Below are positions 1,498 through 63,578 of a stretch of 64,000 nucleotides of DNA, one piece after another. This DNA is from an uncultured Candidatus Saccharibacteria bacterium. GTDB lineage: Bacteria > Patescibacteriota > Saccharimonadia > Saccharimonadales > Saccharimonadaceae. Below the pieces are notes generated by a model. The model saw only the letters and a program-made list of their open reading frames with translations, did not search any database and had not been told where the DNA came from. The DNA lies in the NCBI GenBank assembly GCA_947304155.1, contig CAMZAD010000001.1, positions 186,001 to 250,000 of the forward strand, given 5' to 3'. The translations under genes and the position numbers were made by a program. Each line of letters begins with the position of its first letter. The stretch's first letter is position 1.

Positions 1498-1573
1498 TGG
1501 AGCCGCGAGTCGGACTTGAACCGACGACCTGCCGCTTACAAGGCGGCTGCTCTACCAACTGAGCTATCACGGC
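1498..1573 (-). tRNA. tRNA-Thr(UGU)
   Basis: A 76-nt cloverleaf on the minus strand with acceptor GCCGTGA/TCGCGGC, encoded CCA, anticodon stem GCCGC/GCGGC and loop CTTGTAA, giving anticodon TGT. The T arm contains GGTTCAAGTCC. It reads threonine ACA codons and is one of two tRNA-Thr genes in the window. Confidence 0.95.
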
Positions 1574-2678: not shown

Positions 2679-3155
2679 ATGAAGATGATTGTTGGGGCAG
2701 TTCTCTTTATTCAGAATTACGACATTAAGTTTCTCTATGAGGCAATAGAGATACCACAGGAAGTTCTTGAGGAATTTACGGACAATCAAAAAAGACTTAA
2801 AAGTCAGGCACAAAATTTGGGGGGCGGGTATGACTTTGTTTTTGCTTTCAGGACCAGCGAAGCGATTCGCTGGCTGATGAACCAAGATTATATCGTCGAT
2901 TATAACGAAGCGTCTATTTGTAGAAAGGAGGAGCTCTTAGATACGATTGACGTTTTAAAACGAAGATATAATGAGGTTCTATCTCAGGGGGGTAGCGAGG
3001 CAGAAATTCAGGCAAAGTCGCTTGAGCATTGCATCAAAAGCTATAATCTGATGCTTCAGATTAGGGATGGCGAGCTTTCGTTTGACATTCCGACGATGGA
3101 GGATGCGAAAAAGCTTACTCCGAAAAAAGGTTTGCTTGGCCGATTCTTCCAATAA
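2679..3155 (+). CDS. Small lineage-specific protein, DIKF/AIRWL family, member 1
   Basis: 158 residues, no recognised domain and no signal or membrane segment. AAGGTGGGG lies upstream of the ATG. Residues about 13-30 (QNYDIKFLYEAIEIPQEV) and the block FVFAFRTSEAIRWLMNQDYI align with the protein at 3312-3749 (QHYDVMFILNHAE; FDIIFSNPDAIRWLDNQAYI). Both continue through a charged, probably helical region with a similar LDTIDVLKRRYNEV pattern and reach a shared SFDIP near the end. The tail KKGLLGRFFQ is unique. The two genes follow one another, each with its own promoter, which suggests local duplication. Confidence 0.8.
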   Translation: MKMIVGAVLFIQNYDIKFLYEAIEIPQEVLEEFTDNQKRLKSQAQNLGGGYDFVFAFRTSEAIRWLMNQDYIVDYNEASICRKEELLDTIDVLKRRYNEVLSQGGSEAEIQAKSLEHCIKSYNLMLQIRDGELSFDIPTMEDAKKLTPKKGLLGRFFQ

Positions 3156-3311: not shown

Positions 3312-3749
3312 ATGAAATTAAAGATTGGGCAAAAATGGTACTTGCAGCATTACGACGTGATGTTTATCTTAAACCACGCCGAGAGGGCGCCGGAAGTTGT
3401 GCTAGATGAAATCTTTAAGGAGAATTCCTTTGTTAAAGGAGAGGACGATCTTAAGGACTATTTCAAGTTTGACATCATCTTCTCTAATCCTGATGCAATA
3501 CGCTGGCTTGACAATCAGGCGTATATTGTAGATTTTGAGAAGATGCGTTGCACGAAGTTGCAAGCGCTTGAAATTAATCGCGATCAGCTTCGGGTGGAGT
3601 ACGGCCAGATGTATTCTGGTATTGATTTTACGGAACACACTGAGGAACAGAAGTACAAGATTGCAAAACTCGTTCAAAAGATTAAGTCTCTTGACGCGGG
3701 TATTGATTTTCGTATGCACCGACTTGAGTTTGATATTCCAATGAAGTAA
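3312..3749 (+). CDS. Small lineage-specific protein, DIKF/AIRWL family, member 2
   Basis: 145 residues; paralogue of the preceding gene (shared YDVMFIL..., AIRWLDNQAYIVDFE and a terminal LEFDIP). The start has AAAGGGGGA upstream. No signal peptide or membrane helix, so probably soluble. The middle (about residues 85-130) is Lys/Gln/Glu-rich and likely helical. It may be cotranscribed with the short gene at 3782, only 32 bases downstream, because no terminator separates them. Function unknown. Confidence 0.8.
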   Translation: MKLKIGQKWYLQHYDVMFILNHAERAPEVVLDEIFKENSFVKGEDDLKDYFKFDIIFSNPDAIRWLDNQAYIVDFEKMRCTKLQALEINRDQLRVEYGQMYSGIDFTEHTEEQKYKIAKLVQKIKSLDAGIDFRMHRLEFDIPMK

Positions 3750-5258: not shown

Positions 5259-5270
5259 CCGGGGGTTTCT
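5245..5270 (+). terminator. Terminator enclosing the stop codon of the 4383-5258 gene
   Basis: CCCCCGG (5245-5251) pairs with CCGGGGG (5259-5265), followed by TTTCTTCGTTTTT. The TAA stop at 5256-5258 sits in the loop. Confidence 0.75.
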
Positions 5271-5302
5271 TCGTTTTTAAGAAAAATTTTAATATGGAAA
5301 AG

Positions 5303-5322
5303 CCCCGGCTGGTTTGCCGGGG
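5303..5322 (-). terminator. Terminator of the 5362-6408 gene
   Basis: CCCCGGC (5303-5309) pairs with GCCGGGG (5316-5322), with TTTT on the minus-strand side. It is one of four near-identical terminators (loop AAACCA) after the helical-repeat paralogues. Confidence 0.75.
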
Positions 5323-5361
5323 ACTCTTCGTTTTTAAGGGGGTTTAAATAATGGAATATGG

Positions 5362-6408
5362 CTACTCCTCGAACTTTTCGAGAAGATCGTCATCAAGTCC
5401 TGCGGTTTCGAAGACATTATAGAAGTATTCCTTCAAGCCGTCGTCGATTCGCTCGGGGTCGATGCTTGCAGCAAGTACACCAACGTCGATAGTGTTGCAG
5501 CCAGCCTCTACTAAACTTGCCATCGCTTCGGCTTCTTCTGGTTTTCCTGAATAGCCGCATTCGGTAACAAACTTAGCTGCCAAGGCTTCGATGTCTCCAC
5601 CCGCATTAGTGAAGTTTTCGGTGAAATCCACGAAATCGCTAGCGCTGGTCGCTTCCAGGTTCTCCAGGATGTCATTCATTAAGAAATTATCCAAGAATTC
5701 CTGTAAGGTAATACACTTCGGTAGGTCGGTAAGGTCGTAGGCACAAGTAATGTACCCAACTCCGATGGTGTTGAGATAACGTTCCTTGTAGTCGTCGGGA
5801 TTGATATTCAAAGCACGCCAATCGTTGTAATCGAAATCAACGATGCTCTCAACGATTTGGTCGTTCAGGTGCTCGTCAACCCATTTTTTTACTTTTGCCG
5901 GGTCCAAACCGTATTTCTCAAATAACTGGAAGACTTGCAAAAGCTCTTCTGCGTCGTCTTCGTTGGCGTCAAGTACCTCATGAATGTAGGAAAATGCGGC
6001 ATTAATGTCGATTCCCTTTTCCATAAAGCTGACAAGTTCATCTTGGCTCATATTGGGGCTAAAGATGTAGCATGCCAAAATGTTGACGTTGGCTCCCATT
6101 TCGATGAAGCGATCCAAATTGCCCCTTACGAAATCGACGTCATCAATTTTGATGGCGAGTTTTGTAGGATTAATATCGGCCCCATAAGAAATGAGTAGGT
6201 CATAGTTCTCGAATACGTCGCGCGGTGCGAGTAATTCGGCAACAAGGGATGGATCTTTCCCTGCCTCCAGGAACTCAGCAAGATGATTTTTTGCGGTTAG
6301 ATTTACATCTTCAACCTCAAGTTCGTCACTGCTGTCAATTTTTTCGAGACATTCGTCCCAAAGCGCGTCCGTGGTGCAGCTTGGCACCTTTTTGATTACC
6401 TTTTTCAT
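5362..6408 (-). CDS. Helical-repeat protein, ankyrin-like, paralogue A (most divergent)
   Basis: 348 residues, very acidic, no signal peptide or membrane span. Degenerate repeats of roughly 27-35 residues end in ankyrin-like turns: LLISYGADIN, RFIEMGANVN, SFMEKGIDIN, LFEKYGLDPA. A long alpha-helical C-terminal part ends LKEYFYNVFETAGLDDDLLE. The repeat pattern and the (F/V)xxW(V/L) and YFYxVxxxxGL blocks are shared with the three upstream paralogues, so the set arose by duplication. Such repeats usually mediate protein-protein contact; the partner is unknown. The ATG at 6408 follows GAAGGAGGG. It has its own promoter, hairpin leader and terminator. Ankyrin-like is an inference from repeat shape. 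Confidence 0.8.
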   Translation of the reverse strand: MKKVIKKVPSCTTDALWDECLEKIDSSDELEVEDVNLTAKNHLAEFLEAGKDPSLVAELLAPRDVFENYDLLISYGADINPTKLAIKIDDVDFVRGNLDRFIEMGANVNILACYIFSPNMSQDELVSFMEKGIDINAAFSYIHEVLDANEDDAEELLQVFQLFEKYGLDPAKVKKWVDEHLNDQIVESIVDFDYNDWRALNINPDDYKERYLNTIGVGYITCAYDLTDLPKCITLQEFLDNFLMNDILENLEATSASDFVDFTENFTNAGGDIEALAAKFVTECGYSGKPEEAEAMASLVEAGCNTIDVGVLAASIDPERIDDGLKEYFYNVFETAGLDDDLLEKFEE

Positions 6409-6424
6409 CTGGTAACCCTCCTTC

Positions 6425-6534
6425 TTTTAAATTTTGCTAGCGTCCGTAGAGCCGACGCTACTCTATAGTTTTTACTATTCTTGTATTATAACATATTTTT
6501 GAAAATAAAAAAGCCCTGGCTGGTTTTGCCAGGG
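6425..6534 (-). promoter_or_regulatory. Terminator-promoter-hairpin cassette, copy 1
   Basis: Along the minus strand this interval carries a terminator for the 6554-7615 gene (CCCTGGC/GCCAGGG, 6514-6534), then ATGTTATAAT with the -10 at 6485-6490. Next come a leader hairpin TAGCGTC/GACGCTA (6438-6460) and the GAAGGAGG ribosome site of the 5362-6408 gene. The same arrangement recurs at 7.63-7.73 and 8.83-8.94 kb. No good -35 is seen because the terminator T tract occupies that position. Confidence 0.75.
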
Positions 6535-6553
6535 ACTTTTTGGGGTGAGGGTG

Positions 6554-7615
6554 CTACTTTTTACTTTTCGTTTTGAATTTTCTTAGGAGACTAGCTCTAA
6601 CGCCCTTGTCCTTTAGAACTCTGTAAAAGTAGTCTTTTTGCTCTTTGCTCATATTCCTGGCCTTAACTTTTGCAGCTAGTTCATCAGCGTCAATAGGTAG
6701 ACTGTGAGTTGATGGATATTCTAGTAACGCGACGAGCAATTCTGCGCGAAGTGGCTCTTTTGGATAGCCTCCAAACTCCCTTAATGCTTTTTCTGTAAGT
6801 ACTTTGTTAGAACCGCGGTAGTCGGCAACTGGAGCAGTGCCATTCCTGTATGACTCAAGTATCTCGTCAACGGTTACAAAATTTAGGAATAACTCGCTTG
6901 GTACGATTTCTGGGATTGCTTTTAAGTTTCCTACGTAGATTTCCTTGTAGATTTTGCACCATCTTTTGGCGTATTTTTCAGGATGTGGTACGAAGTCATC
7001 GCAAAAACCATGAATAATGTCAGAAACGATGTGTTCGTAGACTGGACTATCTTTAGGTTGTGATTTTAGCCAGTTTCCGAACGCGCTTTTGTCTAGTCCG
7101 TGCTTAACTAGCAAGGAGAAGGTGGCCTCAACTATTTCTGAGTTTAAGTTAAGATCTTTCTCCTTAGCAAAGTTGTAGGCAGTTCTAGGGCTAATTCCTG
7201 GTGCGCTTTCAAGCATTTCTTCAGTGCCATAATAGTCAGCGTCAAAACATTTCCATACCATTTTGTCGGTATTGGCACCGTGTTTGTAAAACCACCCCCA
7301 ATGGTTTTCTACGAAATCCGAGCTACATTTTTTTGCGAGTTCATCAACCGTGATATCTGCGCCAGCGTCTTTCAGTTTGTTAAAATACTTAAAGATAATA
7401 TCGCCCTGATCAAGTAATTCGACTAGCCGGTTTGCATCAAAGCCAGCATCAAGAAATTCTTGAAGATACTTTTCGGCTTCGTATGTGATGTCTCTTCTAT
7501 CCAAGAGAACGTCGCGTGAAAAGCATAATTGCTTGTCTTTTTTGAGACGTCCAACGAGGTTGTCCCATATTTCTAGAAGCCTCCTCTTTGAAATATTTAG
7601 TTGTTTAGTTTCCAT
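6554..7615 (-). CDS. Helical-repeat protein, ankyrin-like, paralogue B
   Basis: 353 residues, soluble, closest to the 7742-8824 protein along its whole length. Shared blocks include RLLEIWDNLVGR near residue 13, the repeat turn KLKDAGADIT, NHWGWFYKHGANTDKMVWKC, FGNWLKSQPKDS, LREFGGYPKEPLRAELLVAL, and KDYFYRVLKDKGVRASLL near the C-terminus, which ends in a basic tail (KTKSKK). No catalytic motif is visible. The start follows GGAGGGTTAG. Repeats of this form usually bind proteins; a role in regulation or host contact is only a guess. Transcribed from cassette copy 2. Confidence 0.8.
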   Translation of the reverse strand: METKQLNISKRRLLEIWDNLVGRLKKDKQLCFSRDVLLDRRDITYEAEKYLQEFLDAGFDANRLVELLDQGDIIFKYFNKLKDAGADITVDELAKKCSSDFVENHWGWFYKHGANTDKMVWKCFDADYYGTEEMLESAPGISPRTAYNFAKEKDLNLNSEIVEATFSLLVKHGLDKSAFGNWLKSQPKDSPVYEHIVSDIIHGFCDDFVPHPEKYAKRWCKIYKEIYVGNLKAIPEIVPSELFLNFVTVDEILESYRNGTAPVADYRGSNKVLTEKALREFGGYPKEPLRAELLVALLEYPSTHSLPIDADELAAKVKARNMSKEQKDYFYRVLKDKGVRASLLRKFKTKSKK

Positions 7616-7625
7616 CTCTAACCCT

Positions 7626-7725
7626 CCTTTTTAAGATTCTAGCGCCCATCAGCTGGCGCTCCACTGTGATTTCTATATTATAACATATTTTTGGAAATAA
7701 AAAAGCCCCGGCTGGTTTGTCGGGG
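7626..7725 (-). promoter_or_regulatory. Terminator-promoter-hairpin cassette, copy 2
   Basis: Contains the terminator CCCCG/CGGGG (7706-7725) for the 7742-8824 gene, -10 TATAAT (7677-7682, minus strand), leader hairpin AGCGCC/GGCGCT (7641-7660) and the ribosome site of the 6554-7615 gene. It differs from copy 1 by a compensatory pair in the hairpin stem (T-A to C-G). Confidence 0.75.
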
Positions 7726-7741
7726 ACTTTTTGCGGAGGGG

Positions 7742-8824
7742 CTAATGATTTGTTACTTCAAATTTTTTCAATAGCACAGGGTTAACCTTGTACTTTTCTA
7801 GGACGTAGTGGAAATATCCCTTTTGGTCGTCATCCATGTCGCTAGTGTCAACTGCTGATGCTAATTTGTTAGCGTCTATCGGCAGTGGGTCTTTCCTTGG
7901 GTTGTCGAGAAGAGCTATAAGAAGTTCAGCTTGTTGTATATCTTTTGGATATCCGCCAAACTCTTTTAAGGCTCTTTCTGCCAGCAACTGGTTGGATCCG
8001 GGGAATTCTGACACTAACTCAATACCATTGTTATACTTTTTGACTATTTGTCCTACGGTAACATGGTTGAGGTATACTTCAGCTGGAACCAGGTTTGGAA
8101 TGCCACTTAGACGTCCAATATACTCCTTGGCTTGAGTTCGACACCATTCGTCAATATACTTTCTGCGGTTTGGAACGAAATCATCACATTTTCCACGCAT
8201 GATGTCATCGATGATAAGGCTGTAAATCCAGTGCTTATCTTTGTTTTCCTTGAGCCAATTTTCGAAGAAGCTCGGTTCTAGGCCGTGTTTTGCTAGTACC
8301 GAAAAAACAACCTCAACCTCGTTTGCATGAAAATCCTTGTGGGGCGCGAGAATAAGATTATTTGCTAGACTATAGGCTGTACTAGGTTTAATTTCAGGCG
8401 CCTTTTTAAGTATTCTCTCGAGGTCGGCGGCACAACAGATGTGTTCATAGTCGCCAAAGCATTTCCAGGCCATTTTGTCGATGTTGGCGCCGTGTTTACA
8501 AAGCCAAGACCAATGCTCCTCAACAAAACTAGTTGAGCATCTTTTTACGATATTATTAATATCGATATTGGCTCCGATTTTTTTAAGCTTTTCATACCAC
8601 TCTAGAATGACTTCGTCTGAATTCAGTAAGTCGATTAGCTGGTTCATGTCGTACTTCGCGGCGAGAAACTCTTGGATATACTTTTGAGCTTCATAAGAAA
8701 TATCGCTCAGCTTTTGGGCGTCTTCCTTGGAGATGCCCCGTTTTTTGGTGATTTCCTTGTATCTCTCTACGAGATTATCCCAAATTTCCTGTAACCTTTT
8801 CCCTGAAATAACGTTGTTTACCAT
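7742..8824 (-). CDS. Helical-repeat protein, ankyrin-like, paralogue C
   Basis: 360 residues when started at 8824, where GGAGGATATTAACA gives proper spacing; an in-frame ATG ten codons upstream lies before this ribosome site and is rejected. It is nearly collinear with paralogue B: RLQEIWDNLVERYKE, a turn KKIGANIDINN, EEHWSWLCKHGANIDKMAWK, FENWLKENKDKHWIYSLIID, LKEFGGYPKDIQQAELLIAL, and a C-terminal YFHYVLEKYKVNPVLLKKFE. No signal peptide or membrane segment, and no catalytic residues recognised. Close similarity to B points to a recent duplication. Transcribed from cassette copy 3. Confidence 0.8.
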   Translation of the reverse strand: MVNNVISGKRLQEIWDNLVERYKEITKKRGISKEDAQKLSDISYEAQKYIQEFLAAKYDMNQLIDLLNSDEVILEWYEKLKKIGANIDINNIVKRCSTSFVEEHWSWLCKHGANIDKMAWKCFGDYEHICCAADLERILKKAPEIKPSTAYSLANNLILAPHKDFHANEVEVVFSVLAKHGLEPSFFENWLKENKDKHWIYSLIIDDIMRGKCDDFVPNRRKYIDEWCRTQAKEYIGRLSGIPNLVPAEVYLNHVTVGQIVKKYNNGIELVSEFPGSNQLLAERALKEFGGYPKDIQQAELLIALLDNPRKDPLPIDANKLASAVDTSDMDDDQKGYFHYVLEKYKVNPVLLKKFEVTNH

Positions 8825-8831
8825 TGTTAAT

Positions 8832-8937
8832 ATCCTCCTATTTTTAAATTTCAAGCGCCCATTAGTTGACGCTACACTTGATTCTCATATTATAACATAT
8901 TTTTGAAATTAAAAAAGCCCTGACTGGTTTGCCAGGG
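8832..8937 (-). promoter_or_regulatory. Terminator-promoter-hairpin cassette, copy 3
   Basis: Terminator CCCTGaC/GcCAGGG (8918-8937) for the 8995-9936 gene, -10 TATAAT (8889-8894, minus strand), leader hairpin AGCGcC/GaCGCT (8854-8873) and the GGAGG site of the 7742-8824 gene. At the covarying stem position this copy has a G-U type pair. Confidence 0.75.
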
Positions 8938-8994
8938 ACTTTTTGTTGGTGAGGTTGGAAAAAGTTTTTGTAGTCCCAGCTGGTTTGCCGAGAA

Positions 8995-9936
8995 CTAAGA
9001 TGAGCTTAGCTTAATGAGATCTTCATTACGTAAGCCGCGTGCCATGAACATGATGAAATACTTCTTTTTGTCGTTCTCTCTCATGTTGTCGATATCCATG
9101 TCATCAATAAGCATTTTTAAAAACCTGCGGAGAGGTTCACGACTCTCTTGTCTGAGGGTTGCCGCAGCTTCAAAATCGAAAACAGCACTTGCTATATTGC
9201 CATGGTACCCTTCAATCCACTGTTTACCGGTTGTTCTTTCAAGTACAACTTCAAGTGGGAGTTTGTCTGGTATGGAACAAAGTCCAGATGATAGCACATC
9301 GTTTAGGTTTCTTTCAAGCCAGGCGTCGTAGTATCTTGCTTGGTTGACATATTTTTCCCACTCCGTGTTTAGGATGTGGCGTATGAATATGTCATAAAGC
9401 TCGCTGTCTTTTGGAAGACTGTCAAGCCAAGACTCAAACCCGGTAAATCCGTTTTCGCAGAGAATATGCATTGTATGAGCATATACATCATAACAGTGAC
9501 CTTCTTCGGAAAGAATAGTTTCCTTTGCAATACTAAAAGCTAGATTAGCATCAACGCCTTTCTTTTCAATTAACTCTGTGATTTCCCAGGGCTCTTCAAT
9601 CTTGCCATAGCAAAACTTTGCAAGGGTCTCTACGTCAGTTACATGTTCTAGGAACCAGGTCCAGTTTACTTTTACATAAGTAATTGTAGCCTGATTTAAG
9701 AGATTAATCTTGGTTCCTAGCTCGATAAACTGATTGTAGGACCTTAGTGTATCCTTGGAGTTCATCATTGAGCTAATTACATTCAGATCGAAGTCCTTAC
9801 CGATAAAATCGGATAGAAATTTGTTGACTTCGAACTGGTCTTCTTTGAGTTCTACTGCTTTGTTTTCTCTCTTTTGATTTTTAAAATAATCTTGTAGCTC
9901 CTCAAACTTTACGTCAAGTTCCATCTTCTTTTCCAT
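8995..9936 (-). CDS. Helical-repeat protein, paralogue D
   Basis: 313 residues; the shortest and a divergent member. It keeps KVNWTWFLEHVTDVETLAKF (equivalent to the HWxWxxxHGAN block of B and C), FESWLDSLPKDSELYDIFIR, and YYDAWLERNLNDVL followed by a SIPDKLPLEVVLE segment. The C-terminal YFIMFMARGLRNEDLIKL matches the family ending. The glycine turns typical of ankyrin repeats are mostly lost. The ATG at 9936 follows AAAGGAGAAAAGAC. It is expressed first in the group and from a different leader (long hairpin at 10018-10082). Function unknown. Confidence 0.8.
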   Translation of the reverse strand: MEKKMELDVKFEELQDYFKNQKRENKAVELKEDQFEVNKFLSDFIGKDFDLNVISSMMNSKDTLRSYNQFIELGTKINLLNQATITYVKVNWTWFLEHVTDVETLAKFCYGKIEEPWEITELIEKKGVDANLAFSIAKETILSEEGHCYDVYAHTMHILCENGFTGFESWLDSLPKDSELYDIFIRHILNTEWEKYVNQARYYDAWLERNLNDVLSSGLCSIPDKLPLEVVLERTTGKQWIEGYHGNIASAVFDFEAAATLRQESREPLRRFLKMLIDDMDIDNMRENDKKKYFIMFMARGLRNEDLIKLSSS

Positions 9937-10017
9937 GTCTTTTCTCCTTTTTCAGCTAAGCTGGTAAAATTTCTGACGGGCCCTATGCCTCGCCAGGTAG
10001 AACAAGAATCTATGTAA

Positions 10018-10082
10018 AGATATGGGTGGGATTTTAAACTTTTTCTTCCTCTTAAAGAACTATATTCCCCACCCAAATATCT
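10018..10082 (-). promoter_or_regulatory. Long leader hairpin upstream of paralogue D
   Basis: GATATGGGTGGGA and TCCCCACCCAAATATC pair across a ~38-nt A/T-rich loop, placing a strong hairpin near the 5' end of the transcript and about 80 nt ahead of the start codon. The rest of the 9937-10181 gap holds only the promoter and nothing else recognised. Confidence 0.6.
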
Positions 10083-10090
10083 ATTCGTTT

Positions 10091-10119
10091 ATTATAGCAC
10101 AGAAACCTAAAAAAGTCAA
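10091..10119 (-). promoter_or_regulatory. Promoter of the 8995-9936 gene
   Basis: Minus-strand TTGACT (10114-10119), 17-base spacer, TATAAT (10091-10096) preceded by TGTGC. Confidence 0.8.
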
Positions 10120-10181: not shown

Positions 10182-10889
10182 CTAGTTTTCGCTATTTAAT
10201 TGAGGTTGTTCAGATTGTTTATCGTCTTTCATGATATTGATGATATCTTTTGTATCTTTAGCGGTGCTTCTGATATTTTCCATGGTCAGGGCAGAGATAA
10301 CCTCGATTGTGCCGGCTACAGTGGTGAGGGCGCCCATGATAATGTATCCGCTAAGGTCAATTGAATCTGAGGCGAAGATGAAATATGGGCCAATAATGAA
10401 TTCAACGACCATTAAAACAAGCATGAATTTCCAGCGGAAATCCTTGTTGTCACGGTATTTATAGGTATTAATGGCACCAAGAACGCCGTTAAAGGTTGTG
10501 AAACCGCCAGCCATGAGATTTAGGACTTTGTTGGTGAATCCTTCGTTAACGAGGAGAAAGACGCCGAGCGCGGCGATAAGGGTGTAAATTGCAGATTCGC
10601 CAATCTGGAGATAGATTGCGCGCTTTTTGACGTTTTTGACGCGTTGATCTTCCCTGCCAGTTTTGTCGTAATCAGCTTTAATGTAACCGAGGCGATAAAA
10701 GGCCCAGAACGCGAGAACTGCACCTGCAATTACAATGACAACAGGGAGAGTTTTGGTGTCATTCCCGTGTCCGTTAATTGCTGCGATGAACATCATAATG
10801 CCTGAAATAAGCATCATGAGAGCCATGGCAATCTTGTTTTTTAGGAAAATTTTGTAGGCGTTGAGGCCGCGTTTCACTAAGTTGTTCAT
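10182..10889 (-). CDS. Multi-pass membrane protein, DUF308/HdeD-like
   Basis: 235 residues from the ATG at 10889. The same frame extends further upstream, but that extension overlaps the divergent gene and crosses the promoter. About six hydrophobic spans are visible: MALMMLISGIMMFIAAI, VVIVIAGAVLAFWAF, IGESAIYTLIAALGVFLLV, MAGGFTTFNGVLGAI, FMLVLMVVEFIIGPYFIF and IIMGALTTVAGTIEVISAL. A charged cytoplasmic tail follows (DTKDIINIMKDDKQ). Six short spans with small-residue motifs resemble DUF308/HdeD-type proteins; that is inference. The -10 lies six bases before the ATG, so the mRNA should be leaderless. Confidence 0.75.
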   Translation of the reverse strand: MNNLVKRGLNAYKIFLKNKIAMALMMLISGIMMFIAAINGHGNDTKTLPVVIVIAGAVLAFWAFYRLGYIKADYDKTGREDQRVKNVKKRAIYLQIGESAIYTLIAALGVFLLVNEGFTNKVLNLMAGGFTTFNGVLGAINTYKYRDNKDFRWKFMLVLMVVEFIIGPYFIFASDSIDLSGYIIMGALTTVAGTIEVISALTMENIRSTAKDTKDIINIMKDDKQSEQPQLNSEN

Positions 10890-10895
10890 AGTTTT

Positions 10896-10901
10896 ATTGT
10901 A
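10896..10901 (-). promoter_or_regulatory. -10 box giving a leaderless start at 10889
   Basis: Minus-strand TGCTACAAT with six bases between TACAAT and the ATG, so transcription should begin at or next to the initiator A. Confidence 0.55.
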
Positions 10902-10928
10902 GCACATATTTTTTATGTTTTTTGATGG

Positions 10929-10934
10929 TATAAT
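10929..10934 (+). promoter_or_regulatory. -10 box of the 10962-11180 gene
   Basis: TATAAT after GATGG; a short leader with AGGGAGAAATT precedes the ATG at 10962. It is divergent to the leaderless promoter 30 bases away. Confidence 0.55.
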
Positions 10935-10961
10935 AGAGGTAGATTTTAATAGGGAGAAATT

Positions 10962-11180
10962 ATGGGACAAATTGAGAAAGGTAGTATTAAGCATCTGTTT
11001 ATACAGATTGTTGCTTTTTCTGTAATGGGGATTATTCTTTATCCGTTGTTTGACCTTGTAGTCTGTAATTTCTTCACTCATACTGAGTTTGTTTACTCTT
11101 TTAGTAGCCACATTGTTGAGCCAATATTGTTTGGTGTTGTAATGGGTTTAGTCTTTTGGTTTCTTGATAAGAGAAAATAG
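10962..11180 (+). CDS. Small membrane protein, two predicted spans
   Basis: 72 residues: a short N-terminus (MGQIEKGSIK), first span about 13-33 (FIQIVAFSVMGIILYPLFDLV), a loop with FFTHTEF, second span about 50-67 (VEPILFGVVMGLVFWFL) and a basic end (DKRK). The good promoter, AGGGAG ribosome site and clean hydropathy support a real gene. No family assigned. It converges on the 11219-11467 gene, which is also a two-span protein but not evidently related. Confidence 0.75.
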   Translation: MGQIEKGSIKHLFIQIVAFSVMGIILYPLFDLVVCNFFTHTEFVYSFSSHIVEPILFGVVMGLVFWFLDKRK

Positions 11181-11936: not shown

Positions 11937-12012
11937 TGGAGCCGCGAACGAGATTTGAACTCGTGACCTCATCCTTACCATGGATGCGCTCTACCGACTG
12001 AGCTATCGCGGC
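11937..12012 (-). tRNA. tRNA-Thr(GGU)
   Basis: A 76-nt cloverleaf with acceptor GCCGCGA/TCGCGGC, encoded CCA, anticodon stem CATCC/GGATG and loop ATGGTAA (anticodon GGT). Reads ACC/ACU threonine codons. Confidence 0.95.
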
Positions 12013-57722: not shown

Positions 57723-59183
57723 TTACCTTGCCACACAACGAACCGAAGCACCGTGTCCCTTATTATTGTTAGTTGATGGACTAACAATCGTTGAATAATA
57801 TTCCAGGACTTTTATCTGAGCCTGGGTGTAGACAGTAGATGACCAGAGAAAACCATGCTCTCCTTGATAGTACATCATACCAGATCTAATATACTGGCCG
57901 GAATAGATAAAGTTGAACGGCGACCTTAACATTGAGGCTGGACTGACCCCTCCATATTTTGTAGTAAGAAGATAATAGAAGCTTTTATCTTCCGTTGTAC
58001 CAAGAGGAAGCCTCCAACCCTTAGGGCAGATGGAGTCTTCGGCATTGCCGCTCGTCATCGCGTATGTGCCACTTCCAGCGGTAGCAGCATACCAGTTATA
58101 GTAAACTCCGGCTTTCTCCCAATCGTATTCGACACCAGAAGCGGTTGGGGTGCTAGATTTTACTGTGCCACCTTGGTAATATCTGTCCGAGGCAATTGGA
58201 TAGTATGAAAGGGCAGCGGCAGAGGCAATATCATTAGAGCTCGACCAGTTACTTGAAGTTGGAGCAGTGGTAAAAGACGAATTCTCTGGCGTCCAACTAG
58301 TTTTAGTATTGAGGTCAGTAGTGCCACTTGTGAGCTCAGTATTTTTATTGAGTACAAGTTCAAGGTTTTGGCTCATCCAACAGTTACCATCGGCAAGTTT
58401 TGAAATTAAGTAATACTTACCGTCGCGGGTATCTTGGACTGAGGCGCGAGGGACGAGGTCTTCATAGAAGACTTTATTCCAGCTAAAATCTACAGTGTTT
58501 TTTGTTGGAGTATAGGTCTCAGCGCAGTATCGTGCCAGATTTGAGTCTTGCATACTTGTCAAATCAACAAGTCTATTAACATTTGGGACCGGACTCGGGT
58601 GGGCGATAGCTGAGAAGACAACCTTTTTGGAATATGTGCCGGAAGGAAGTGTGCTATCTATCTTCGTTCCAATAGTTACCGTAGTGTCTTTCTCTGAACT
58701 TGTTGGATAATGGTCTAAGTCCTTTATCTTTACCTGGTCTGCAAGGGCTGGGATTTTATTAAAGTAGGTTGCGCCAAGCGAATAGCCCCATTTATTTGCA
58801 GACATAGATGAACTTGTTACGGCAGAGTTAAAATCTGAAGTAATCACGGATTCAGAGACTAGACTAGTCATGGCAGTGGAGCTGTCTTCGGATGAAAAAT
58901 AGAGCTCATATCCGCCAGTACTGTTTGTATCTACAGTCGCAATAATTGAGCCGGAATCGAAGACACCTGCTGAGGTTGGAGTAATATCAAAACTTAGGGC
59001 GTTTTTATCCAGGGAGATTGAAATAATTGGATTAACACTAACATTAACCTCGGCAGATTTCTCAGCAGCGTTAGTTTTAATGGCTGGAGCAAAGATAAAT
59101 ATTGCCGAGACAACAGCAAGAAACAAACCTAAAAAGATAGCGAGGTTTGAAGTTCTATTAGTTTTAGTTTTGATACTCTTCAT
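57723..59183 (-). CDS. FISUMP-domain surface protein, array 2, gene 4
   Basis: 486 residues. Signal-anchor about 14-34 (LAIFLGLFLAVVSAIFIFAP) ending APAIKTNAAE. N-terminal beta-rich domain with TVDTNSTGGYELYFSSEDSS and MSANKWGYSLGATYF. The FISUMP domain starts near residue 240 (VQDTRDGKYYLISKLADGNC, WMSQNLELVL), continues with KAGVYYNWYAATAGSG and SICPKGWRLPLGT, and ends VRCVAR. Likely exported by Sec and held at the surface; FISUMP function is not established. Its 3' end shares long nucleotide identity with genes 2 and 3, and its AGGTAA stop region still precedes the stub ATG. Confidence 0.92.
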   Translation of the reverse strand: MKSIKTKTNRTSNLAIFLGLFLAVVSAIFIFAPAIKTNAAEKSAEVNVSVNPIISISLDKNALSFDITPTSAGVFDSGSIIATVDTNSTGGYELYFSSEDSSTAMTSLVSESVITSDFNSAVTSSSMSANKWGYSLGATYFNKIPALADQVKIKDLDHYPTSSEKDTTVTIGTKIDSTLPSGTYSKKVVFSAIAHPSPVPNVNRLVDLTSMQDSNLARYCAETYTPTKNTVDFSWNKVFYEDLVPRASVQDTRDGKYYLISKLADGNCWMSQNLELVLNKNTELTSGTTDLNTKTSWTPENSSFTTAPTSSNWSSSNDIASAAALSYYPIASDRYYQGGTVKSSTPTASGVEYDWEKAGVYYNWYAATAGSGTYAMTSGNAEDSICPKGWRLPLGTTEDKSFYYLLTTKYGGVSPASMLRSPFNFIYSGQYIRSGMMYYQGEHGFLWSSTVYTQAQIKVLEYYSTIVSPSTNNNKGHGASVRCVAR

Positions 59184-59189
59184 GCCTCC

Positions 59190-60641
59190 CTACCTTGCCA
59201 CACAACGAACATTAGAGCCAAAGGCTTTATTATCATACGCACGCGGAGCAGGACCTGTTGCCTGAATATATGTGTACACATTGGTTTGTGAGCGAACAGT
59301 TGTAGACCAGAGATATCCAACTGCCTCTTGATTAGTCATAACATTATTTTCAAAGTGATAGTATCCAGGTTGAATTACATTGAGTGGGGTGTTAGCTAAT
59401 GATCCGCCTCCTCTGCCGTATTTTTCGGTGACAAGATAATAGAAGCTTTTATCTTCATCAGTTCCAAGTGGTAATCTCCAGCCTTTTGGACAGATAGAAT
59501 CTTCGGCATTGCCGCTCGTCATCGCGTATGTGCCGCTTCCGGCGGTTGCAGCGAACCAGTTATAATAAACCCCGGCTTTTTCCCAGTCATATTCAACACC
59601 AGAGGCGGTTGGTGTGCTAGATTTTGACGTACCACCTTGGTAATATCTGTCTGAAGCAATTGGATAATACGAGTAAGCAGCCGATGAAGCGGCGCTGGTT
59701 GAAGTTGGCCAGGTACTTGAAGTTGGAAATACTGTTAACGTAGAATTCTCTGGGGTCCAGGACGTCTTAGTATTCAAATCAGTCTTTTCATTCGTAAGAG
59801 CTTTGGTTGAATCTAATGCGAGTTCAAGGTTTTGAGACATCCAACAGTTACCGTCGGCAAGTTTTGAAACGAGATAATATTTACCGTCACGAGTATCTTG
59901 CAAGCTATTTCTTGGGACGCGAGTATTGTCTCCATGATATGAGCCATCCCAGTCCAATGCGGTGGCGGTTTTTGCAGGGGTTGTGGTTTCATTACAGATA
60001 TCAGGATTCATTTCCTGCATCGTGCTGATAGTATGAATAGTTTCCGGAGATGGATGAGCAATTGCCGAAAAAACTACGTTTTTTGTATAGGTTCCAGATG
60101 GAAGATTTGTATCTACTTTGGTTGCAATATTAACAGTCGTAGTCTTCTCTGCGCTTGACGGGAAATGATCAAGGTCTTTGATTTTGGTAGGAGTTGCAAG
60201 AGTTGGGATAACCGAGAAGTTCGTGCTATCCAAGGAATAGCCCCACTTGTTCACAGCCATAGTTGAACTTGTGACAGTTCCAGAGAAGTCCGAGGCGATA
60301 GTAGATTCGGAAGTGAGACTTGTCATTGTTGTAGTATTATCTTCAGATGAGAAGAAAAGCTCATAACCACCAGTACTATTAGTATTTACTGTAGCGACTA
60401 CAGCTTGGGAGTTGAAGGCGCCAGCTGCGGTAGGGGTGATATTGAACTCCATAGTGTTGGTGTCTAGAGCAAGAGAAACGACTGGGCTAACTGTAGCTTT
60501 AACCTTAGTATTGGCATTACTATCTGCATTAGTTTTAACAACTGGAGCAAAAAGCATGACAGTAGAAGCGGCAGCAAGAAGCGAGCCCGAGAAGATAGCG
60601 AGGCTAGTGATTTTATTGGATTTCGTTTTAGTATTCTTCAT
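59190..60641 (-). CDS. FISUMP-domain surface protein, array 2, gene 3
   Basis: 483 residues. Signal about 14-33 (LAIFSGSLLAAASTVMLFAP) with APVVKTNADS. Middle domain: TVNTNSTGGYELFFSSEDNT, MAVNKWGYSLDSTNF. FISUMP: LQDTRDGKYYLVSKLADGNC, WMSQNLELAL, KAGVYYNWFAATAGSG, SICPKGWRLPLGT, ending NVRCVAR. The linker cysteines (PDICNETTTP) differ from gene 4. Closest to gene 2 in the first 210 residues but to gene 4 over the YDWEKAG...EDSICPKG stretch, a mosaic pattern suggesting gene conversion. Confidence 0.92.
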   Translation of the reverse strand: MKNTKTKSNKITSLAIFSGSLLAAASTVMLFAPVVKTNADSNANTKVKATVSPVVSLALDTNTMEFNITPTAAGAFNSQAVVATVNTNSTGGYELFFSSEDNTTTMTSLTSESTIASDFSGTVTSSTMAVNKWGYSLDSTNFSVIPTLATPTKIKDLDHFPSSAEKTTTVNIATKVDTNLPSGTYTKNVVFSAIAHPSPETIHTISTMQEMNPDICNETTTPAKTATALDWDGSYHGDNTRVPRNSLQDTRDGKYYLVSKLADGNCWMSQNLELALDSTKALTNEKTDLNTKTSWTPENSTLTVFPTSSTWPTSTSAASSAAYSYYPIASDRYYQGGTSKSSTPTASGVEYDWEKAGVYYNWFAATAGSGTYAMTSGNAEDSICPKGWRLPLGTDEDKSFYYLVTEKYGRGGGSLANTPLNVIQPGYYHFENNVMTNQEAVGYLWSTTVRSQTNVYTYIQATGPAPRAYDNKAFGSNVRCVAR

Positions 60642-60649
60642 GCTCCCCC

Positions 60650-62107
60650 TTACCTTGCAACACAGCGGACATTAAATCCATATCCCTTATAACTTCCGTT
60701 GTTTTGAGGATAAATATTTGAGTTATTAAACGCCAGGCTATACATAATTGGTTGTGAATATGCAGTGCCAGACAAATAATACCCATATGACCCTTGACTA
60801 TTCATGGCACTGCTGTTAAAGGCGTAATAGCCGGCGCGCGGAAGATTAAATGGGGACGACATAAGAGAAGAAGCTGCGGCTCCATATTTTGTGACTAAGA
60901 GATAGCTCCAGCTTTTATTGGAAGTAGTACCAAGTGGCAGTCTCCAGCCTTTTGGACAAATTGAATCATTAACTGTTCCTGAAATTGAATATATGCCGGT
61001 TCCAGCCGTAGCAGCGAACCAGTTATAATATACTCCCGCCTTTTCCCAGTCGTACGAGCTACCACTTCCAGAGGCTGAGCTGGATTTCGAAGTTCCATTG
61101 CGATAGTATCTATCTGATGATATTGGGTAGTACGAATAAGCTGCGGCCGCTGACCCAGATTCTGAGGTTGGCCAAGTACTTGAGTTTGGAACGGTTGTTA
61201 AAGTTGAATTTGTCGGCGACCAGGTTGTTTTAGTATTAAGATCAGTATCTTCATTTGTTATTGTTTTATTTGCAGTAAGTACAAACTCAAGATTCTGGCT
61301 CATCCAGCAGTTGCCATCTGCAAGTTTTGAGACAAGATAATATTTACCGTCGCGATCATCTTTGAGGCTCTTTCTTGGAACACGGCTAGTATCTCCACGA
61401 TATTCACCCGTCCAGTCTAACGCAGTAGCGGAAGTAGTTGGAGTAGTAGTTACTGCACAGGTTTCAGAGGTCATTTGTTGCATGCTAGTTATTTCATGGA
61501 GCGATGGGATTAAACTTGGGTGTGCAACAGCTGAAAAAACAACTTTTTTAGAGTAGGTGCCAGATGGTAGACTTGAATCTATTTTAACTGCGATATTTAC
61601 AGTTGTGTCTTTTTCAGCAGCAGCTGGGAAGTGATTTAAATCCTTAATCTTCGTTGGCGTTGCTAGAACAGGAATGACTGAAAAATTCGTATTATCGAGT
61701 GAGTAGCCCCATTTATTCGCGGCCATAGTCGAGGAAGTTACGGTTGAGTTGAAGTCTGAGGTAATTGTAGATTCTGAAACGAGGCTAGTCATAGCAGTAG
61801 AGCTGTCTTCGGATGAGAAGTAAAGCTCATATCCGCCAGTACTGTTTGTATCTACAGTAGCGACGATAGGTTGTGAGCTAAATGCGCCAGCAGAAGTTGG
61901 GGTAATATTGAAATCTAATGCATTTACGTCAACAGCAAGGGAGACAACCGGATTAATCGTTGTTTCAACTTTAAGATTTGCATTGCTGTCGGCATTAGTC
62001 CTGATAATTGGCGCAAAAAGTAGAATAGCTGAAGCAGCAGTAAGAAGTGAGACAGAGAAGATGGCGAGAGTTGAAATCTTATTAATTTTATTATAGGTTT
62101 TCTTCAT
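60650..62107 (-). CDS. FISUMP-domain surface protein, array 2, gene 2
   Basis: 485 residues. Signal about 14-33 (LAIFSVSLLTAASAILLFAP) with APIIRTNADS. Middle domain: TVDTNSTGGYELYFSSEDSS, MAANKWGYSLDNTNF. FISUMP: LKDDRDGKYYLVSKLADGNC, WMSQNLEFVL, KAGVYYNWFAATAGTG, SICPKGWRLPLGT, ending NVRCVAR. A Ser/Gly-rich variable segment (GTSKSSSASGSGSSYDW) replaces the TPTASGVEYDW of its neighbours. Starts five bases... after the stop region of gene 1, using AGGTAAGAAT as ribosome site. Confidence 0.92.
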   Translation of the reverse strand: MKKTYNKINKISTLAIFSVSLLTAASAILLFAPIIRTNADSNANLKVETTINPVVSLAVDVNALDFNITPTSAGAFSSQPIVATVDTNSTGGYELYFSSEDSSTAMTSLVSESTITSDFNSTVTSSTMAANKWGYSLDNTNFSVIPVLATPTKIKDLNHFPAAAEKDTTVNIAVKIDSSLPSGTYSKKVVFSAVAHPSLIPSLHEITSMQQMTSETCAVTTTPTTSATALDWTGEYRGDTSRVPRKSLKDDRDGKYYLVSKLADGNCWMSQNLEFVLTANKTITNEDTDLNTKTTWSPTNSTLTTVPNSSTWPTSESGSAAAAYSYYPISSDRYYRNGTSKSSSASGSGSSYDWEKAGVYYNWFAATAGTGIYSISGTVNDSICPKGWRLPLGTTSNKSWSYLLVTKYGAAASSLMSSPFNLPRAGYYAFNSSAMNSQGSYGYYLSGTAYSQPIMYSLAFNNSNIYPQNNGSYKGYGFNVRCVAR

Positions 62108-62111
62108 ATTC

Positions 62112-63578
62112 TTACCTTGCTACACAACGGACAGAGAAACCGACACCCTTAATGTCAGAATTTTGAGGAGAAACATTTAATTCATGGAAGAACAGGTTGC
62201 GTGCCTGAGCCTGTGATGAGTCAGCGGACGAAGCCCAAAGGCCTGCGCTATAGCCCTGTCTTTTCATAGTAATATCACCATAATCATAGTAGCCGGCGCG
62301 GAGAAAATTGAGTGGTGGGGTTATCATATTAGCAGCACTGGCACCGTATTTTGTAGTAAGAAGATAATAAAAGCTTTTATTGTCCGTTGTGCCGAGCGGG
62401 AGCATCCAACCTTTTGGACAGATAGAGTCGGTTGCATTACCCGAAGTCATGGCATAAGTGCCACTTCCTGCGGTAGCAGAATACCAGTTGTAGTATACAC
62501 CAGCTTTTTCCCAATCATACTCGGTGTCAGATGCGGTTGGAGTGCTAGATATTGATGCACCTCCTTGATAATATCTGTCTGTTGCAATTGGGTAATATGA
62601 ATATGCAGCGGCTGATGCATTTGAGTATCTATCTGGCCAGGTTCTAGAAGTTGGCTTAACCGTCAGAGTTGAGTTCTCTGGAGTCCAGGTAGTTTTAGTA
62701 TTAAGGTCCGTAGTCTCATTTGAGAGTGATGTATTTTTATCAAGTATAAGTTCGAGGTTTTGACTCATCCAACAGTTGCCATCTGCAAGTTTTGAAATCA
62801 AGTAATACTTGTCGTCACGGCTATCTTTTACCGACGCACGAGGAACAAGGTCGCCAAAGAAGACTCTATCCCAGTCTATTTCCGTAGCATCTGTCGTTGG
62901 CGTATAGGTGTCGGCGCAATATTGCGCTAGGTTTGGGTCTTGCATACTTGTTAAATCTACAAGTTTATTAAGATTTGGAACTGGGCTTGCATGTGCGATT
63001 GCTGAGAATTTTACTACTTTACTATAGACGCCAGCATCAATAGTATCGTCAATTTTAATGCCAATATTAACCGTGGTATTTCTTTCATTTGAAGTTGGAT
63101 AGTGGTCTAGGTCTTTGATTTTTACTTGGCTTGCGAGAGTTGGGATTTTGTTGAAGTTAGTGTTGTCTAGCGAATAACCCCATTTATTGACTCCCATGTT
63201 TGCGAGAGTGACTGCAGAGTTGAAGTCTGAGACAATAGTATCTGAAGTAGTAGTGCTGGTCATGGCAGTGGCATTATCTTCTGATGAGAAATATAGTTCA
63301 TAGCCACCAGTGCTATTGGTGTCTACCGTAGCGATCACTGGTTTTGATTCTGAACTACCGCCGGAAAGTGGAGAAAGAGTGAAGTTTAGGAGAGATTCAT
63401 CGGTTGTGATAGCGAGGACTGGTCTTACAATAGTTTCAACTTCAGCGCTAGATTCGGCAGCGTTGGATTTGATGACTGGTGCGAAAGTCAGAGTTGAAAT
63501 AAGACCAAGAGTTAGGAAGGATGCAAAAATAACAAGTATAGCATCAATTCTTTGATTCTTCCCAATCATTCGCTTCAT
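62112..63578 (-). CDS. FISUMP-domain surface protein, array 2, gene 1
   Basis: 488 residues. Signal about 13-35 (ILVIFASFLTLGLISTLTFA) with APVIKSNAAE. Middle domain: TVDTNSTGGYELYFSSEDNA, MGVNKWGYSLDNTNF. FISUMP: VKDSRDDKYYLISKLADGNC, WMSQNLELIL, KAGVYYNWYSATAGSG, SICPKGWMLPLGT, ending SVRCVAR. First gene of the array. Its -10 (TAAAAT, 63591-63596) leaves a leader of only a few bases and no Shine-Dalgarno. The linker before FISUMP (MQDPNLAQYCADTYTPTTDA) pairs it with gene 4. Confidence 0.92.
   Translation of the reverse strand: MKRMIGKNQRIDAILVIFASFLTLGLISTLTFAPVIKSNAAESSAEVETIVRPVLAITTDESLLNFTLSPLSGGSSESKPVIATVDTNSTGGYELYFSSEDNATAMTSTTTSDTIVSDFNSAVTLANMGVNKWGYSLDNTNFNKIPTLASQVKIKDLDHYPTSNERNTTVNIGIKIDDTIDAGVYSKVVKFSAIAHASPVPNLNKLVDLTSMQDPNLAQYCADTYTPTTDATEIDWDRVFFGDLVPRASVKDSRDDKYYLISKLADGNCWMSQNLELILDKNTSLSNETTDLNTKTTWTPENSTLTVKPTSRTWPDRYSNASAAAYSYYPIATDRYYQGGASISSTPTASDTEYDWEKAGVYYNWYSATAGSGTYAMTSGNATDSICPKGWMLPLGTTDNKSFYYLLTTKYGASAANMITPPLNFLRAGYYDYGDITMKRQGYSAGLWASSADSSQAQARNLFFHELNVSPQNSDIKGVGFSVRCVAR

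Follow-up and report, generated by a model that had tools for sequence, protein, structure and literature searches.

Ankyrin repeat proteins are built from a unit of 33 residues that consists of a beta hairpin and two helices, and the TPLH block is an ankyrin motif. PPR, PUF and HEAT proteins are alpha-solenoids, in which the helices form a superhelical array. Among gene arrangements, morons are autonomous promoter-gene-terminator units in prophages. The four genes considered here, A-D, lie in a window of 64,000 nucleotides (the whole stretch of DNA analysed) from an uncultured Saccharibacterium, and they invite comparison with the repeat proteins in the predicted fold of their products and with morons in their predicted flanks.

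Results

The genome of the window comprises 770,681 bases and is 97.5% complete. A TrpS search in named genomes kept 80 loci, nearly all from 'Candidatus Saccharibacteria' and many from the ruminant gut; the closest TrpS among these loci belong to a roe deer rumen MAG (RGIG5046, 88%) and a goat duodenum MAG (RGIG2239, 87%), and the organism is a rumen/gut Saccharibacterium.

The array lies on the minus strand and is transcribed in the order D-C-B-A. It consists of gene A (5362..6408, 348 aa, acidic, pI 4.05), gene B (6554..7615, 353 aa), gene C (7742..8824, 360 aa counted from the ATG after AGGAGG, which is a more likely start than the TTG at 8854 chosen by the ORF tool) and gene D (8995..9936, 313 aa), the most diverged of the four. 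With gene B as the query, the whole genome contained exactly four matching places (E = 4e-244, 3e-101, 5e-21 and 7e-18, from best to weakest), which are those of A-D, and the identities are 48% for B/C, 27% for A/B and 23% for D/B; these data confirm the four tandem paralogues that an earlier note on this DNA had proposed. The two blocks that it had assigned to all of them are each present in half: an exact HWxWxxxHGAN is found in B and C but not in A or D, and FxxWLxxxPKD occurs in B and D and not in A and C. In the tree, B and C are sisters (support 100/99), D joins them moderately (85/93), and A falls outside this grouping; constraining A-D to one clade lowers the log-likelihood by 0.07 units (p-AU 0.48), and the tree neither shows nor rejects a single origin of the array.

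The array occupies a variable locus bordered on the minus strand by tRNA-Thr(ggt) (11937..12012) and tRNA-Thr(tgt) (1498..1573), with tRNA-Tyr (2420-2504) near the latter. The span between the two tRNA-Thr genes is 10.5 kb in the window, the largest of 16 measured (0.15–5.7 kb in the others), and both its length and its content differ among relatives. In genome G069, trpS-S4-holB-TPR adjoins the locus as it does in the window, and the order trpS-S4-holB-TPR-tRNA-Thr(ggt)-one family gene-tRNA-Thr(tgt) places a single copy at the same location, which, judging by gene order, is orthologous to the place of the A-D array. Among the 80 trpS loci, many of which are cut by contig ends, a family member was within reach only in L099, which holds the same genes as contig C7 of G069. 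Inspected by eye, the neighbours of the array are housekeeping or unannotated genes. A DUF308-like membrane protein is encoded at 10182-11111, and similar N-termini were seen by eye in the tRNA-bounded locus of L109 and L130. Two plus-strand neighbours (2679-3155 and 3312-3749) appear by eye to be tandem paralogues (IRWLxNQxYIVD) and have no Pfam family. Elsewhere in the window (57723-63578), there are tandem ORFs of about 485 aa, and the three that were scanned match Fib_succ_major near the cut-off.

The distribution of the family is narrow. Profile A1 found it in 24 of 196 relatives, all within the genus, and profile A3 in 46 of 174 genus genomes, the own genome being counted in both; in a phylum-wide sample, it was found in 4 of 379 genomes, of which two belong to the genus (one of them the own genome) and a third to a sister genus; the fourth is marginal. 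The first profile scan of genome contigs with A1 found no relative. No relative was found either in viral contigs, phage records or plasmids, each searched with one query (gene B, the relative L222 and gene A were among the queries), and a phage or plasmid origin of A-D was rejected for want of any such relative. The family thus appears, from the searches made, to be unannotated and genus-restricted.

Each of the four genes is followed on the minus strand by a predicted terminator of one type, R1: 5301..5325 after A (57.8 bits), 6512..6536 after B (57.6 bits), 7704..7728 after C (55.9 bits) and 8916..8940 after D (58.0 bits), the last three abutting the promoters of A, B and C, respectively. 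A further, decayed copy lies at 8972-8996. R1 is a covariance model of the terminator built from 10 rows, 4 of which are the window terminators themselves; these are the four strong matches in the own genome (56–58 bits, the next 26), all of them 3' of A-D. The unit ahead of A, B and C comprises terminator, promoter, hairpin leader and ribosome site in near-copies, with the -10 elements at 6485..6490 (A, TATAAT, TATGTTATAAT), 7677..7682 (B) and 8889..8894 (C) and the leader hairpins at 6438..6460, 7641..7660 and 8854..8873, all on the minus strand. Ungapped 77-nt copies at 6477, 7669 and 8881 (73–81% to the first) are accompanied by a 61% copy at 5266, and a leader repeat of 38 nt is common to B and C (82%). 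BLASTN with the unit of B in the own genome gave three full copies, all before A-C, and a terminator copy after A. The regulatory cassette that three of the genes had been said to share is thereby confirmed, and the insulation ascribed to each gene agrees with the terminator predicted after each of A-D.

Gene D ends in the same type of terminator and lacks the A-C unit upstream; its separate promoter (TTGACT ... TGTGCTATAAT, 10091..10119, minus strand) is followed by a long structured leader of about 150 nt (9937..10090, minus strand), in which TTTACATAGATT follows the 3' arm of a hairpin. The -10 motif TRTGYTATAAT occurs at 67 sites in the genome, as against 1 for the reversed control, and 4 of the 67 belong to A-D; it is therefore a general promoter type that is uninformative about a private regulator, and a private promoter for A-D was ruled out on this ground. 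The earlier claim that the genes are under the same control is accordingly overstated, since the -10 element is general and D has a different promoter and leader.

Among the 63 other sites, 44 promoters were sampled (some of them tRNA promoters), and in 25 of these an open start lies at most 14 nt from the -10 element, which would fit leaderless mRNAs. The leaders of A-C measure 61–76 nt, and each has a hairpin as well as a strong Shine-Dalgarno site. Their hairpins have the same stem, in which one pair is T-A in A, C-G in B and T-G in C; the shuffle fractions for the stems of A, B and C are 0.01, 0.07 and 0.07, with MFE z values of −2.4, −0.9 and −1.9, a modest signal. An Rfam element was rejected, tRNAs alone having passed the gathering cut-off.

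In relatives, flanks of this kind surround other genes as well. R1 matches 64 of 170 genus genomes, of which those contributing to the model are built in, because 6 of its 10 rows were taken from other species, where 4 of these terminators follow family genes and 2 follow unrelated ones. At 30 R1 loci, the upstream gene is a family member in 5 cases (one of them D), and 11 of the 12 candidate upstream genes scanned carry Sigma70_r4 and/or RNA_pol_A_CTD. Sigma-4 is present in 10 and alpha-CTD in 7, one of these matches lying slightly below the cut-off; the remaining upstream genes are diverse or none. Most family relatives have terminators of other types. A terminator pattern, derived from family terminators and searched at loci partly chosen for family genes, has 9 distinct occurrences in 1.72 Mb, and 7 of these lie just 3' of family genes. 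The leader model R2, built from 15 rows that include no window sequence, matches 21 of 170 genomes. It precedes family genes in G018 and G234, which contributed to the model, and in G199, which is new, and elsewhere mostly sigma-4/alpha-CTD genes; of its 7 matches outside the training set, at least 3 (L263, L264, L265) appear to be due to chance. R2 has no match in the genome of the window. That genome also holds no sigma-4/alpha-CTD fusion, its three matches being, by eye, RpoD, RpoA and a protein of a different type that carries sigma-4. Judging by these models, flanks with R1 or a leader of a related kind are reused around unrelated accessory genes in relatives. The expectation that the cassette belongs to this family thus stands for the own genome, where the whole unit occurs before A-C only, but not for relatives, where the terminator and a leader of a related kind flank unrelated genes.

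Accessory proteins with sigma-70 region 4 and/or the alpha C-terminal domain were noted at L215, L218, L219, L220, L225, L228, L232, L234, L235, L242 and L243, and such genes often share a long leader and the R1 terminator. An element like TTTACATAGATT lies directly 3' of a hairpin both ahead of gene D (window 9990-10020) and ahead of unrelated genes (leaders at L054, L218, L219, L220, L223, L235, L236 and L240).

From these observations, it is possible, although we consider it doubtful, that gut Saccharibacteria share a genus-wide exchangeable expression cassette for different optional proteins. The cassette would consist of a promoter, a structured Shine-Dalgarno leader amid largely leaderless promoters and a sequence-conserved terminator, and its payloads would include fusions of RNA-polymerase parts and solenoid binders; A-D would be one payload multiplied in a tRNA-bounded slot, the cassette being conserved by conversion while the payloads diversify. 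The spread of R1, with sigma-4 and/or alpha-CTD genes upstream at 11 of the 30 loci, and the occurrence of R2 before both kinds of gene agree with such a module, against which stand the failure of R2 to match the window's genome, the other terminators of most family relatives, the matches built into R1, and the lack of any observed mobility gene or fixed site of insertion.

The divergence of flanks and genes can be compared directly. The terminator and promoter of A-C form one piece of 58–59 nt that is 88–95% identical between copies, gap columns being left out, as opposed to 34–39% identity at third codon positions among the three genes (dS > 2 or beyond estimation). Since shuffled whole units reach a mean of 0.69–0.70 and a maximum of 0.84, the leader identities (0.74–0.84) are weak by themselves, while those of the terminator–promoter piece exceed the maximum. 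The contrast indicates that the A-C flanks are kept alike by constraint or homogenisation, beyond the trace of a recent duplication. Plain tandem duplication, by which the units would be alike merely through having been copied with their genes and would carry no further meaning, is in keeping with the tandem order, the sister relationship of B and C and the general promoter type; we regard it as unlikely, because mere copying, as long ago as the genes themselves date, fails to explain how alike the flanks are.

Searches with A-D found no Pfam or NCBIfam family above the curated cut-off and no match among PDB sequences; PHROGs and the PADLOC models of anti-phage defence gave weak matches only, in the latter at best 0.0023 for D and none amounting to membership. 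No description of the family was found in titles and abstract openings of the open-access PMC literature. AlphaFold2 modelled protein A from a 14-row alignment with a mean pLDDT of 89, 25 helices and no strand, and A is confidently predicted to be an all-helical solenoid. Foldseek gave no convincing match for A in the PDB (TM < 0.3 throughout the best 50 rows) or among viral models, or for the long relative L045 in the PDB, and neither a partner gene nor a fold match bearing on a binding role was found for A-D. Of the checks proposed in the earlier note, structure prediction thus yielded a solenoid and the HMM search no known family, and its view of an apparently undescribed, expandable helical-repeat family holds.

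The A3 profile matches the full-length relatives L035, L036 and L076 (E about 1e-106 to 1e-109), which places them in the family; the first two are rows of the profile and L076 is not. In the long relatives within the genus, a separate N-terminal domain is followed by consecutive repeats of about 26 aa. A profile of 49 such units, none from A-D, matches A (7.7e-10), C (4.7e-6) and, weakly, B (4.9e-3), and does not match D; the best of 200 shuffled proteins reached 0.016. In the AlphaFold2 model of L045, the repeat part has helices only, spaced by about 26–28 residues, and the N-terminal domain is modelled poorly. Long proteins with an N-terminal GT(P/G)WC-motif domain and many near-identical 26-aa repeats were noted at L042, L045, L048, L052, L054, L089, L090 and L091, and 82-aa ORFs that correspond to no more than the family's N-terminal part and end in TAG occur in three genomes (L040, L041, L083).

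A reading of A-D as diverged members of the ankyrin-repeat family, which might act as effectors on the host cell, is very improbable. In its favour are GA(D/N)I(D/N) turns, an Ank_4 score of 1e-10 for L042 reached without any single stretch passing and a weak structural resemblance to ankyrin proteins of viruses (E = 0.025 for the best ankyrin row). These are outweighed by the lack of any Ank match for A-D at E ≤ 1, by modelled units in which about 26 aa form three short helices without a beta hairpin and by N-termini in which no signal peptide is evident by eye.

Discussion

Given their homology, location, flanks, predicted fold and narrow distribution, as documented above, we favour, with moderate confidence, the reading that A-D form a local tandem array of accessory, genus-restricted genes for intracellular alpha-solenoid proteins, each a transcription unit of its own, with flanks that stay alike and proteins that diverge. 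The terminator of one gene would run directly into the promoter of the next, its T-tract substituting for the -35 box, and the ordinary extended -10 element would be followed by the short hairpin leader and the strong Shine-Dalgarno site. The unit would be copied along with its gene, so that the array could grow without read-through between copies. The proteins would diverge fast, whereas selection or gene conversion would keep the flanks similar, with transcription presumably following the predicted flank signals.

As to function, fold class and divergence are the grounds on which we infer an intracellular, variable binding scaffold: A-D may bind variable protein partners, for recognition or sequestering, much as ankyrins do with a different repeat, and the divergence of the copies would broaden the set of partners. 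Saccharibacteria are described as reduced episymbionts (PMC12206443), and an expanding, fast-diverging array in a genome of 0.77 Mb is therefore likely to be important at the interface with host, phage or competitor.

The flanks are the more telling feature: in this array they are under constraint or homogenised, and flanks of this kind recur around unrelated accessory genes in relatives. R1 and R2 offer a sequence handle for accessory genes that homology search misses, including the sigma-region-4/alpha-CTD fusions, which may act on transcription.

Compared with known systems, the family shares with the Pfam Ank clan an alpha-rich solenoid and a GA(D/N)I(D/N)-like turn that recurs, so that the term 'ankyrin-like' used earlier describes a superficial likeness only. 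Its units, of about 26–28 aa in the models of A and L045, have no beta hairpin, the TPLH block is lacking, and Ank profiles do not match L035, L036 or L044 at 0.1. With alpha-solenoids such as the PPR, PUF and HEAT proteins in the top rows of VIA-align, protein A may have in common the general superhelical array of helices; its best Z is 9.1, obtained against a plant mitoribosomal chain with an rmsd of 10.3 across 317 residues and 8% identity, and lies in the range below about 13 in which, according to the program's warning for helical repeats, a match may reflect a common arrangement only. Like morons, A-D are predicted to have a complete transcription unit per accessory gene; unlike these prophage elements, they form a chromosomal tandem array with no viral or phage relative in the searches made.
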